Positions 3,001 through 34,503 of a stretch of DNA of 36,823 bases are shown piece by piece (positions within the stretch are counted from its first letter, which is position 1; each line of letters begins with the position of its first letter). The notes under the pieces were generated by a model. That model saw nothing but the letters and a program-made list of their open reading frames with translations, made no database searches and was not told where the DNA came from. The stretch is from positions 1 to 36,823 of the forward strand of contig MFPS01000005.1 in NCBI GenBank assembly GCA_001782825.1. Direction: 5' to 3'. Origin of the DNA: Candidatus Magasanikbacteria bacterium RIFCSPHIGHO2_01_FULL_33_34 (GTDB taxonomy: Bacteria; Patescibacteriota; Patescibacteriia; Magasanikbacterales; UBA922). The translations under genes and the position numbers were made by a program.

Positions 3001-4555
3001 TATATGCATAATTATCAACTACATCAATTTCATTTGCTAGTCCACCACAGTAAGGTAATGCGCCAAAATTATCATCACATTGACTTACCCTTACTATATT
3101 TGTAGGATCTGATATTCTATAAACTTGTAATCCATAGTACATGCTTGCGCTATATAAATAATCTCCAACTACTTTAAGACCAGAAGTACTCCCTAGCATA
3201 TTATAATTTGGGTATGCTGGGTATGGGTTAAGAGGTATTGGGTTTATTGGGTCTGAGATATTAAATATTTTTAGATAGCTAGTTGAGCCATTACCTTCTG
3301 CCACATATAGTCTATTATTGGCTACAGCAATTTCATGGTAACCTGGGCTTGCAATATGATTGGATAGTATAGGTTGATATGTTGGTGAAATATCTATAAT
3401 TACCAAACCGCCAGTTTCTGCAGCAATGTATGCGTAATTGTTTTTAACCACTAAATCTACGGTATAGCCAGTTGTGTCTACAACACCCATTAAACGAGGG
3501 TTGGAAGTGTTAGAAACATCAATAATTTTCATACCATCATTACCAGCAGCAACATAAGCAATATTATTATTTACTACAACATCATTGATACCACCATTTA
3601 GTAGGCCGATTCGTATGGGGTTTGATTCGTTAGTGGTAACATCAATAATTTCTAGTTGATAGTTGGAAGCTATAAAAACTGTGTTATTGTATACAAAAAT
3701 ATCATTCATATAACCGTTGTCATAGTAAAAACCTACTTGAGTAGGAAAATCAGGGTTTGTTATGTTAATAGAGGTCATACGTTGATAACCATTAACAATA
3801 TATGCACGATTGCCGTTTACTGCTACACCGACAATATCGTTAGCAGGTCGATTATCATCAAAACGTCCTCTTAGAATAGGAGCGTTTGGATTTGCTACAT
3901 CGATTATTTGCATAGCTGTAAGGTCAGCTACATAAGCAAAATTTCCAGATACAACAACATCTATTGCATCTCCTGGTGTAGCTATATTACTTCGAGTTTG
4001 TGGACTGGCTGGATTTGATATGTCAACAATGCGTAGTCCATTTGTATAATCAGCAATATAAGCAAAATTTCCCTGGACATATATACCTTGTGCATTCCCT
4101 GGAGTAATATGAGTGGCGACAAATGTAGGGTTGGTTGGATTAGAAATATTCATAATAACCATATCTCCATTTGCTATAGTAAAAGCATAATTTCCAGATA
4201 CATCTACTGCATTTATGGAATATGAAGTTTGTGTTCCAGCAATTCTTTCACTCCAATCGGTAAATAGAAAGCCAGCCGGTTGGCCATTGTTTGGACCGTC
4301 ATCACAAGTTTCTCCAGAAGCAAAGTTTAGATAACCATCTCCACAGGATGCAAAAGTACAGGCTTGTTCGCCGTAGCCATTATCATAATCACAGGAGGCT
4401 GTATCAGCATTTGATGGCATATCGCATTGTTCAGGTGGTTCAACTGTATTATTTGTGGCGCCATTAATACAAGCTGCTTTAACAGTTTTTGTGTGTGTAC
4501 TAATTAAGAGACTAAATATAACAAAAAATAAAACTATTATATTTATTTTTCTCAT
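1..4555 (-). CDS. Giant secreted LVIVD-propeller / Cys-rich repeat protein (3' end outside window)
   Basis: Reading the minus strand from the ATG at 4555 gives about 1518 codons with no stop, continuing past the window edge. Residues 1-25 are a signal peptide (basic MRK, then a hydrophobic stretch). A short Cys-rich segment follows (CGDGYLNFASGETCDDG). From about residue 80 to 700 there are about 14 repeats ending in motifs such as GLRIVDISNPASP, GMKIIDVSNTSNP and GFDIVDITNPENV. These match the LVIVD family, which forms beta-propellers. From about 708 onward come Cys-rich repeats of the DUF4215/Myxococcus type (CGDG..Q.PNG.G..E.CDDGN.T..G.CNA.C), first seven or eight in exact 38-residue register, then irregular ones. 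The Cys spacing implies a disulfide-rich stalk outside the cell. No Shine-Dalgarno is visible. Inference: surface adhesin or cell-contact protein. The family calls are firm; the role is not known. Confidence 0.9.
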   Translation of the reverse strand, partial: MRKINIIVLFFVIFSLLISTHTKTVKAACINGATNNTVEPPEQCDMPSNADTASCDYDNGYGEQACTFASCGDGYLNFASGETCDDGPNNGQPAGFLFTDWSERIAGTQTSYSINAVDVSGNYAFTIANGDMVIMNISNPTNPTFVATHITPGNAQGIYVQGNFAYIADYTNGLRIVDISNPASPQTRSNIATPGDAIDVVVSGNFAYVADLTAMQIIDVANPNAPILRGRFDDNRPANDIVGVAVNGNRAYIVNGYQRMTSINITNPDFPTQVGFYYDNGYMNDIFVYNNTVFIASNYQLEIIDVTTNESNPIRIGLLNGGINDVVVNNNIAYVAAGNDGMKIIDVSNTSNPRLMGVVDTTGYTVDLVVKNNYAYIAAETGGLVIIDISPTYQPILSNHIASPGYHEIAVANNRLYVAEGNGSTSYLKIFNISDPINPIPLNPYPAYPNYNMLGSTSGLKVVGDYLYSASMYYGLQVYRISDPTNIVRVSQCDDNFGALPYCGGLANEIDVVDNYAYIANGVGGFDIVDITNPENVQWVSHIPFGNALGVTVSGNYAYVSNYYNGGNNLNVVNITNKSAPFLQGTISVSSVSSGIKYLNDFIFLGDRFRGMAVINVSNKSAPTLSSYIYTPEASNKLVIYGNYSFIANINSMQVINISNPLNPSFSADYYNTGVQDSIVDLAINQDYIYLVGNTGLDVVRIRDSSVPNYCNATCSDITLGICGNALVEPGEECDDGNFNDSSCTSMYGTACNYCSDGTDGNLACTTQTSNGPGCGDGVLTTPFETCDDGNATNAGTCNATCLGPTICGDGTQQTPNGVGLTEICDDGNTTNNGTCNATCTAFTVCGDNIVQTPNGVGTFEACDEGETTNAGLCNAFCTAYTICGDGTIQNPNGIGILETCDDGNATNAGICNASCTGPTTCGDGTLQTPNGAGLTEICDDGNTTNNGTCNATCTALTVCGDGITQTPNGLGINEICDDGNTTNNGTCNATCTAFTVCGDNIVQTPNGVGVNEVCDDGNTTDNGTCNATCTGPTICGDSVLQTPNGSGQIEECDPPGSPTPLGGICSTQCRGAVCGNNFVDLGEGCDEWISDTDPNNDDTITCNWNNSNAPYACTSNTCGDGYINETNEVCDQTATNPFRGSTCASLTAGDPIPRTSGNLTCTTCSAIDTNDCYSCGNGIIEGPEYCDDGNTVNGDGCANNCFAPFTPGWSCGTNPFFNGTGTPPESLCALLCGNGNIDAGEACDDNNNITETVNNCTYGVPSCTFCNNDCSQILNFVAPYCGNNSVDTINAGADGIYGNNDDNEEACDLGASLNNNPNCSYGLTSCNTCLTNCSVSQPGITSYCGDGIYDPANEDCEYDTGAPGTSGDGCSSSCTVETGYACGNFGPGGAYTCSFHCGADANGDGNNIDVNFDINGDGIIDINEQCDNGNLNGIRCIADTYGLNCNWCTNSCETRTVTGAYCGDGQINQPYEACDQGNTTSGDGCSATCQIENGWQCSGTRDSRCNTISGDGVCVGA
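1430..2262 (-). repeat. 114-bp tandem repeat encoding 38-residue DUF4215-like units
   Basis: The equivalent base of each unit falls at 1464, 1578, 1692, 1806, 1920, 2034 and 2148, an exact 114-bp period. Some units are nearly identical at DNA level (around 1540-1620 and 2000-2080), which points to recent duplication or gene conversion. Each unit encodes two CGDG/CDDGN half-motifs with six Cys. The repeat also keeps an antisense frame open at 1554-2297 on the plus strand; that frame is a shadow. Confidence 0.9.
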
Positions 4556-32921: not shown

Positions 32922-32993
32922 GGCCCATTCGTCTAGTGGTTAGGACACATGGTTCTCATCCATGAAACAGGGGTTCGATTCTCCTATGGGCTA
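32922..32993 (+). tRNA. tRNA-Glu (anticodon CTC)
   Basis: Cloverleaf: acceptor GGCCCAT/ATGGGCT (first pair G-U), D-arm GTCTAGTGGTTAGGAC, anticodon stem CATGG/CCATG with loop TTCTCAT (anticodon CTC), T-arm AGGGG-TTCGATT-CTCCT, discriminator A. CCA is not encoded (CAA follows). Confidence 0.93.
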
Positions 32994-33033
32994 CAATAAA
33001 AAAACTACTGGCTGTAATCTGGACGGAAATAAT

Positions 33034-33077
33034 AAAAAAGGAACCAAGGGTCAAAAAACCCAAGGCCCCTCGGTTCC
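33034..33077 (-). terminator. Terminator of GC-rich paralog unit 1 (GGAACC type)
   Basis: On the minus strand GGAACCGAGGGGCCTTGGG, a T-rich loop and CCCTTGGTTCC form a stem followed by six T. It starts 8 nt after the stop of the 33086 gene. The stem base GGAACC/GGTTCC and the flank TTTGGAACC are shared with the terminator of the second unit at 34278. Confidence 0.85.
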
Positions 33078-33085
33078 AAACGCCG

Positions 33086-33469
33086 TCACGCACAGCGACG
33101 TACAACAAGATCATACTCGTTCCACCGGAGGCCGTCGGGGTCGCTCCAGAGCCGTGCCCAGTAGTGGCCGTGCTGGGCCCAGTAGTGGCCATGCCGGACG
33201 AAGCACCGGACACTGCGCGGGCGATCAGGGTGGCGCCAGGCGGTTACCAGATTGTGCGACCACAGTTCTTGTGACCAGTCCTGTTTGAAGCACTCATCGA
33301 GGAACTTGCCTTCTTCTTCGCCGATGGCATCCGGCACGCGTTTGAACATCTCGTCGTCGTTGATCGGCAACTCTCCTTCGTTGAGGAATCCGACCGCCTC
33401 AAAGTGACGGGTTTCTCCAGTGGTTGGATGCGTTGCCGAAAACGACTTCTTGATGTCTTTGTGGGTCAT
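33086..33469 (-). CDS. Unknown protein of duplicated leader-ORF unit, copy 1 (GC-rich)
   Basis: A 127-residue protein from the ATG at 33469, preceded by AAGGA at 8 nt. The in-frame ATG at 33571 is rejected because it lies upstream of the predicted transcript start. I do not recognise the family. The N-terminal half has HFEAVGFLNEGELPINDDEM, then RVPDAIGEEEGKFLDEC and QDWSQELW, nearly the same as in the 33927 gene. The C-terminal half is rich in His, Trp and Arg, with a short tandem repeat (GHYWAQ, GHYWAR), ending VVRRCA. No signal peptide or membrane segment. Codons favour C/G third positions (about 55-60% G+C), unlike the AT-rich neighbours, suggesting recent transfer or unusual selection. 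It lies in the interval between two tRNA genes. Confidence 0.75.
   Translation of the reverse strand: MTHKDIKKSFSATHPTTGETRHFEAVGFLNEGELPINDDEMFKRVPDAIGEEEGKFLDECFKQDWSQELWSHNLVTAWRHPDRPRSVRCFVRHGHYWAQHGHYWARLWSDPDGLRWNEYDLVVRRCA
33156..33197 (-). repeat. 21-bp in-frame tandem duplication
   Basis: GCCCAGTAGTGGCC plus seven bases is repeated twice head to tail (33156-33176 and 33177-33197) with two differences. It encodes the doubled HGHYWA. motif and is absent from the paralog at 33927. Confidence 0.85.
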
Positions 33470-33574
33470 TATGTCATCCTTCTTGTGGTTGGTTGTCCGC
33501 TCCATTGCGTGGTTTGAGATATAAAACATTTTTGTATGCCAAACACCGCAATCGGACGAAAAGAACAACATATA
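33470..33574 (-). promoter_or_regulatory. Structured 5' leader of copy 1
   Basis: The RNA should begin near 33569 at GTTGTTCTTTTCGTCCGATTG. The 3' half, CAAACCACGCAAT and CGGACAAC, can pair back: ATTGCG/CGCAAT, then GTTTG/CAAAC after two mismatches, plus GTTG/CAAC at the base. The same first 13 bases and the same hairpin plan occur in front of copy 2, with different stem bases. Likely regulatory; ligand or protein unknown. Confidence 0.6.
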
Positions 33575-33602
33575 ATGATAGCATAAAATGGTGTTTTGTC
33601 AA
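33575..33602 (-). promoter_or_regulatory. Promoter of copy 1
   Basis: On the minus strand perfect TTGACA (33602-33597), 16-nt spacer, TATCAT (33580-33575). Five bases separate the -10 from GTTGTTC, exactly as in copy 2. Confidence 0.6.
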
Positions 33603-33797
33603 ATTTAAGGGGATATAAGGAGTGGGGTATGGTGAAGAGAAATAAATTTATTTTTTTCATAAGTTTTGGGTAAAACACGTTTGAACTTGGTTGTAAAGTG
33701 ATATAATTATCAGACTTTACTTAATTTTTTTATAAATAATTATTAAGAGATTTTAATTTTTTTCTAATAATAATTATTTTTTAATTGTTCAATAAAG

Positions 33798-33826
33798 TTG
33801 ACAAAGTTATTATTTTTTGTTATTAT
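33798..33826 (+). promoter_or_regulatory. Promoter of copy 2
   Basis: Perfect TTGACA (33798-33803), 17-nt spacer, TATTAT (33821-33826), followed after five bases by GTTGTTC. The interval 33603-33797 between the two promoters is very AT-rich and holds no open frame or motif I recognise. Confidence 0.65.
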
Positions 33827-33926
33827 TAGATGTTGTTCTTTTGTTCAATTGTATAGATTAATCTATAATTTTTTATATTTTAAATTATACAATTGAGCTT
33901 GTAGACAACAATAATAGGGGGTTATC
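33827..33926 (+). promoter_or_regulatory. Structured 5' leader of copy 2
   Basis: GTTGTTCTTTTGTTCAATTGTATA (33832-33855, given here as one arm) pairs with TATACAATTGAGC...GACAAC (33887-33910). A perfect inner 11-bp stem TCAATTGTATA/TATACAATTGA and a basal GTTGT/ACAAC flank an internal loop. An AGATTAATCT palindrome sits in the apical part. The Shine-Dalgarno-like AGGGGG follows the hairpin, 5 nt before the GTG start. Same plan as the leader of copy 1. Confidence 0.65.
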
Positions 33927-34268
33927 GTGATTCACAAGGATATACTTATCAAGTTTGAAGTTGAAGGTGTTTGCTTTAAGGCAGTTGGATTTTTGGAGAA
34001 AGGGAATTTGAGCGTAAGTGGTGACGAGATGCTTCGGCGTGTGTCGGATGCCATCGGCGAGGAAGACGGCAAGTTTCTCGATGAGTGTGTTAGCCAGGAC
34101 TGGTCGCGAGATCTTTGGTTGTATCGTTTGGCGACTGCCAAGCTATACTCCGATGGTTCGCGTCGTATCTTATACTTCTCCAGATATAATAATAGTTGGA
34201 ACCGAGGCTGGGGTCGACTTGGTGGAAGTTGGGGGAAGAATTCTCTTGTGATTTGTCGCTGTGCATAA
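33927..34268 (+). CDS. Unknown protein of duplicated leader-ORF unit, copy 2
   Basis: A 113-residue protein starting at GTG with AGGGGG upstream. Paralog of the 33086-33469 product: MxHKDI, AVGFLEKGNL, DEMLRRVSDAIGEEDGKF, LDEC, QDWSRDLW, a Trp/Gly/Arg-rich C-terminal part (NSWNRGWGRLGGSWGK) and the ending VICRCA against VVRRCA. The middle (about 34015-34115) is GC-rich like copy 1, while both ends are AT-rich, as if partly adapted to the host. No membrane or export signal. I know no family with this pattern. Its terminator matches that of copy 1, so the whole unit was duplicated and inverted. Confidence 0.75.
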   Translation: MIHKDILIKFEVEGVCFKAVGFLEKGNLSVSGDEMLRRVSDAIGEEDGKFLDECVSQDWSRDLWLYRLATAKLYSDGSRRILYFSRYNNSWNRGWGRLGGSWGKNSLVICRCA

Positions 34269-34277
34269 GCGACATTT

Positions 34278-34340
34278 GGAACCAATGGTATCTTGGGTCT
34301 TTGGACACTTGACCATTTGGTTCCTTTTGATTTTTGTTTT
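34278..34340 (+). terminator. Terminator of copy 2 (GGAACC type)
   Basis: GGAACCAATGGT and ACCATTTGGTTCC pair with one bulge around a loop that contains TTGGGTC, followed by TTTTGATTTTTGTTTT. The preceding CGCTGTGC and TTTGGAACC are shared with copy 1. Confidence 0.85.
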
Positions 34341-34384: not shown

Positions 34385-34413
34385 TTGACTTTGGCGATAA
34401 TTTTGGGTAAAAT
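34385..34413 (+). promoter_or_regulatory. Promoter of tRNA-Met
   Basis: TTGACT (34385-34390), 17-nt spacer, TAAAAT (34408-34413), 13 nt before the tRNA. Confidence 0.65.
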
Positions 34414-34426
34414 ATGTTCTAATTAT

Positions 34427-34503
34427 GTCAGGGTAGCTCAGTTGGTAAGAGCGTAGGATTCATAACCCTAAGGTCGGGAGTTCGACTCTCCCTCCTGACA
34501 CCA
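34427..34503 (+). tRNA. tRNA with CAT anticodon (tRNA-Met, elongator-like)
   Basis: Acceptor GTCAGGG/TCCTGAC, D-arm GCTCAGTTGGTAAGAGC, anticodon stem TAGGA/CCCTA with loop TTCATAA (anticodon CAT; inner pair A-C mismatched), T-arm GGGAG-TTCGACT-CTCCC, discriminator A, encoded CCA (34501-34503). The paired G1-C72 argues against an initiator. A tRNA-Ile read through lysidine cannot be excluded. Confidence 0.9.

Follow-up and report, generated by a model that had tools for sequence, protein, structure and literature searches.

Probable free-standing DGR target genes in two inverted units between tRNA genes of a Candidatus Magasanikbacteria genome

The closest described systems are the diversity-generating retroelements (DGRs) of CPR bacteria (Patescibacteria), clade 2 (Roux et al. 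2021, PMC8144416). In related genomes, targets of the protein family considered here adjoin a template repeat (TR) and a reverse transcriptase (RT) gene. CPR DGR targets have a variable C-terminal third and are proteins without recognisable domains, and the annotated variable repeat (VR) regions in general are C-type lectin domains (PMC8144416). Surveys have sought targets next to the RT, and remote targets are missed in this way (PMC8144416). In the DGR of Bordetella phage BPP-1, an inverted repeat with an uninterrupted 8-bp stem and a GRNA tetraloop lies right after the VR and stop codon of the target, where it belongs to the retrohoming target and is needed for efficient retrohoming (PMC3240598). 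The locus described here resembles these systems in its proteins, which appear to have the same C-terminal variable third, and in an inverted repeat at the corresponding position. It is unlike CPR DGR clade 2 in that the genome has no detected RT or TR and that two apparently lone targets stand inverted between tRNA genes.

Architecture of the two units and their protein family

The window, i.e., the whole stretch of 36,823 nucleotides that was analysed, corresponds to contig C5; the genome measures 1.0 Mb, comprises 9 contigs, and is 99.8% complete. Two units, A on the plus strand and B on the minus strand, were found inverted and back-to-back between tRNA-Glu (32922..32994, plus strand) and tRNA-Met (34427..34503, plus strand), which form the left and right borders of an accessory site and are adjacent to each other in relatives. 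In each unit, a promoter and a hairpin leader starting with GTTGTTCTTTT precede the gene of a small protein, which is followed by a 3' hairpin of the form GGAACC...GGTTCC. The observation made in an earlier, sequence-only reading of this DNA is confirmed. The promoters of A (TTGACA-17-TATTAT, 33798..33826, plus strand) and B (TTGACA-16-TATCAT, 33575..33602, minus strand) both showed 11/12 matches, with a TG before the -10 box in A. GTTGTTCTTTT begins five bases past each -10 box, and the leader hairpins occupy 33832..33909 on the plus strand (GTTGTTCTTTT ... GACAAC) and 33492..33569 on the minus strand, respectively. Protein A (113 aa, GTG start) is encoded at 33927..34268 on the plus strand and protein B (127 aa, ATG start) at 33086..33469 on the minus strand. 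Their C-terminal VR equivalents, assigned by alignment to the VRs of TR-linked relatives, lie at 34140..34265 and 33089..33238, and the 3' hairpins follow at 34278..34324 (plus strand) and 33040..33077 (minus strand), the latter with a T-rich tail.

The two proteins were 50% identical to each other. At the DNA level, the units were 75–80% alike in the leader (78% over 60 bp), the core of the coding sequence (80% over 97 bp), and the 3' element (75% over 68 bp), and homology of the whole unit extended to the sister species, which bears out the earlier claim that conservation extends to the non-coding parts. The G+C contents of the two coding regions were 47% (A) and 58% (B), compared with 33% in the window. 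DGR targets at other loci likewise had a G+C content far above that of the genomes carrying them.

No credible match to A or B was retrieved from Pfam, NCBIfam, or PHROGs, nor from solved structures searched by sequence. A first contig scan with protein B as the sole query gave no match, and a second scan yielded five loci in close relatives, which are Candidatus Magasanikbacteria MAGs and place the organism among the CPR bacteria. Homologues of A and B were found in related genomes, some of them at loci without an adjacent TR. At several of the homologous loci, the C-terminal block recurs in a short frame further downstream, now with Asn in many places, a hallmark of TRs. The repeat pairs were approximately 100–150 bp long, and at most loci examined they differed almost solely at the adenines of one copy. 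In G024, G248, G069, and G265, where the target gene is an A/B homologue directly beside the TR, 15/16, 20/20, 20/21, and 7/7 of the VR/TR mismatches, respectively, fell on template adenines (62/64 when pooled).

An HMM was trained on these four TR-linked DGR variable proteins alone. Among the 321 ORFs of the window it matched exactly A (E 1e-14) and B (E 2e-13), both of which aligned through the VR, and the next-best ORF scored E 1.3. By this profile comparison, A and B are assigned to a variable-protein family of CPR DGRs. The sequence-only reading had recognised no protein or RNA family and had proposed an undescribed system; the first statement holds for Pfam and NCBIfam models and Rfam families but fails for the DGR variable proteins, and the second is superseded by probable free-standing DGR target genes, identified through the HMM from TR-linked proteins. 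An AlphaFold2 model of B reached a pLDDT of 92.3 and a pTM of 0.86, and Foldseek found no match for it in PDB or BFVD. The fold comparison was uninformative because the model of a control DGR protein also lacked a significant match, and the idea of a non-lectin fold for B was dropped since the control was equally unrecognised. A third family member in the same genome (L045, G000:C8:52097-52426) was AT-rich and more distant; its post-stop element had decayed, and a clear leader was lacking.

Retroelement search and history of the tRNA site

No RT was detected in the genome by PF00078 or by the DGR-RT profile A7, while PF00078 run alongside detected RTs in 7 of 10 related genomes. A TR-like query returned only family genes from the genome, no TR was found near units A and B, and no TR matching the VR of either was recovered, the two TRs of the sister species belonging to other protein families. 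The RT and TR that make up a complete DGR were therefore both lacking from what was detected in this genome. Since neither was found in a genome that is 99.8% complete, we consider it probable that A and B are free-standing DGR target genes without a retroelement of their own, and they are probably frozen variants. In the relatives, the RT copies the adenine-rich TR and randomises its adenines, and the cDNA replaces the VR; here, A and B are most likely expressed as fixed variants, or could be rewritten only by a DGR acting from outside the assembly.

The latter possibility, in which A and B would continue to serve as remote targets for a DGR missed by the assembly or located on a separate element, appears unlikely. 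Remote targets are known (PMC8144416), the RTs of relatives lie on contigs other than those carrying the unlinked homologues, and the promoter, leader, and hairpin of the units are intact, all of which would suit an active target. Against it stand the near-complete assembly of 9 contigs, with neither an RT nor a TR-like match, and the fact that the two TRs of the sister species belong to other protein families.

The reading of A and B as stranded targets was also compared with the distribution of the family. Of 31 family-bearing genomes, 19 had an RT and 12 did not; in the class as a whole, approximately one genome in two carries an RT, and the enrichment of RTs with the family was weak and not significant (61% vs 48%, p 0.19). 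With 12/31 genomes lacking an RT, stranded members are thus common, and together with the weak enrichment this suggests that the family may persist without DGRs. The same count favours a second alternative, which we regard as quite unlikely: an ordinary small CPR protein family would have been captured several times by DGRs, A and B would never have been diversified, their fast-evolving C-terminus would bind a changing partner, and the 3' hairpin would be a plain terminator. However, the variation in unlinked members falls on AAN columns. Among six members that have no TR beside them, A and B being two of these, identity was 12% at columns corresponding to AAN codons in the TRs of relatives and 43% in the rest of the VR (0/2000 permutations). 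This pattern fits past diversification, though it is also compatible with a ligand-binding surface tolerant of substitutions.

In 14 relatives, tRNA-Glu and tRNA-Met lie next to the same PBP2 gene and are separated by 12–209 bp that contain no unit. In the sister species, a single unit orthologous to B lies between the two tRNA genes and the spacing is 780 bp; in the present genome the spacing is 1432 bp, and unit A was inserted as an extra piece of approximately 738 bp. This piece is bounded by 22–23 bp imperfect copies of sequence resembling the tRNA-Met promoter, one at 33659..33681 and the other beside tRNA-Met at 34397..34418 (both plus strand), which could have arisen by duplication of a target site or could be a scar left by recombination. 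On the basis of the empty sites in relatives, the single unit in the sister species, and the G+C-rich coding regions, the cassette is accessory, in agreement with the earlier suggestion, and probably mobile.

The element downstream of the variable region

Both 3' elements were predicted to fold (z -2.9 and -3.0). Because many windows downstream of TRs also fold, the motif count was used as the discriminating measure. CTTGG-type motifs occurred 2.9 times per 80 nt after the stop codons of 13 TR-linked targets, compared with 0.54 downstream of TRs and 0.56 downstream of control genes; unit A had four and unit B three. The motifs recur at intervals of approximately 8 or 16 nt, and a long hairpin is often present in this DNA as well. 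This CTTGG-rich element is common to TR-linked targets of unrelated protein families and absent after TRs, which argues against the repeated capture of an ordinary family, although the 3' element of B, with its T tract, passes a terminator-like scan as that alternative would have it.

Given that the CTTGG motifs follow VRs and not TRs, and by analogy with the inverted repeat of BPP-1, the element that had been called a terminator is better read as a post-VR hairpin. Unlike the BPP-1 stem, the CPR stems are longer, interrupted, and not uniform, with variable loops. In addition, the element might serve in termination, given the T-rich tail of B. The earlier terminator claim is corrected on one point: only the element of B passed the scan and that of A did not, and terminator-like sites were no more frequent than in shuffles (2 against 1.8 expected). 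A strict pyrimidine-loop hairpin was found at 4/13 TR-linked targets and 4/120 controls; with these frequencies, a general rule of 6-bp stems with pyrimidine 2x2 loops was dropped, and our claim is therefore limited to the excess of CTTGG motifs. At several loci the motifs arise from stem segments of 4–6 bp split by TT/TT internal loops. Examples of CTTGG-type post-stop DNA include L092 (from position 3063, minus strand), L089, L041, and L029.

The leader RNA and target genes marked at both ends

Long hairpins at or near the 5' end of the transcript, upstream of the ribosome-binding site, are characteristic of 5' stabilising stem-loop leaders such as those of ompA-type mRNAs. The leaders of A and B share this placement; unlike ompA-type leaders, they have a covarying sequence specific to a gene family and no Rfam family, and their function is putative. 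Only three exact copies of GTTGTTCTTTT are present in the 1.0 Mb genome, and units A and B account for two. The leader folds had z values of -5.8 (A) and -2.3 (B). Over A, B, the sister-species unit (L010), and L004, the 16 pairs of the leader were kept in 90.6% of cases, 7/16 showed compensatory change, and the covariation signal was lost when the pairing partners were slid. The leader hairpin is thus real. Model R2, trained on these four units, matched only the same four in 182 related genomes. The most likely role is that of an RNA-level stem-loop starting right at the 5' end of the transcript, which would protect or control the mRNA.

The sequence-only reading had stated that homologues elsewhere lacking the leader and terminator would count against it, and such a result was obtained in part: the homologue L003 has no leader, and DGR-linked homologues bear a different, longer one. 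A GTTCTTT start was found upstream of 14/34 family members compared with 11/206 control genes. The longer leader, with further hairpins, is present at many homologues, both DGR-linked and unlinked. Model R1, built on its conserved block, had matches in 28 of 381 genomes of the class at E 0.01, the weakest of which are probably due to chance. Two of the confident R1 matches that had not been used in training, L113 and L127, lie upstream of TR-linked targets from unrelated families, where 14/16 and 17/18 of the mismatches, respectively, are on template adenines. In Rfam, the window matched tRNAs only, with no leader family above the gathering threshold, and a permissive search of 11 related loci returned tRNAs and chance matches, again with no leader family; hits such as 'mir-5014' in these loci were far below their cut-offs and were rejected as chance. 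A regulatory or toxin-antitoxin-like cassette of an undescribed type, to which the lack of Pfam, NCBIfam, PHROG, and Rfam matches and the specificity of this leader for A/B-type units might point, is highly improbable in view of the clear HMM homology to DGR variable proteins and of the presence of two homologous proteins rather than a toxin and its antitoxin.

Judged from the papers searched, three features appear to be new: the inverted pair stranded between tRNA genes, the CTTGG element that follows the VR in different CPR target families, and the structured leader that precedes DGR target genes, which is the newest of the elements found. Their priority over the main CPR DGR survey (Paul et al. 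2017) is not certain. Beyond the reading of A and B as free-standing targets, we tentatively propose, with somewhat more doubt than confidence, that CPR DGR targets are marked at both ends, by a structured 5' leader RNA dedicated to them (GTTCTTT start, long stem, and further hairpins) and by a segmented CTTGG hairpin, and that cassettes marked in this way may enter intergenic sites and persist frozen after the retroelement is lost. Under this proposal, both end marks would be common to target genes of unrelated protein families. The findings also prompt one to ask why a structured leader RNA should be common to DGR target genes. DGRs are abundant in CPR bacteria, and the protein profile, the CTTGG post-VR element, and the leader model provide three RT-independent ways to reach stranded or remote targets, making the fate of a hypervariable gene after loss of its mutator testable.

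Examples of the long leader were seen upstream of target genes at L009, L024, L026, L033, L035, L046, L050, L051, and L040. Its covarying hairpins lie upstream of DGR targets from several unrelated protein families, and two of the pairings seem unable to form at the same time, like those of an attenuator or riboswitch.
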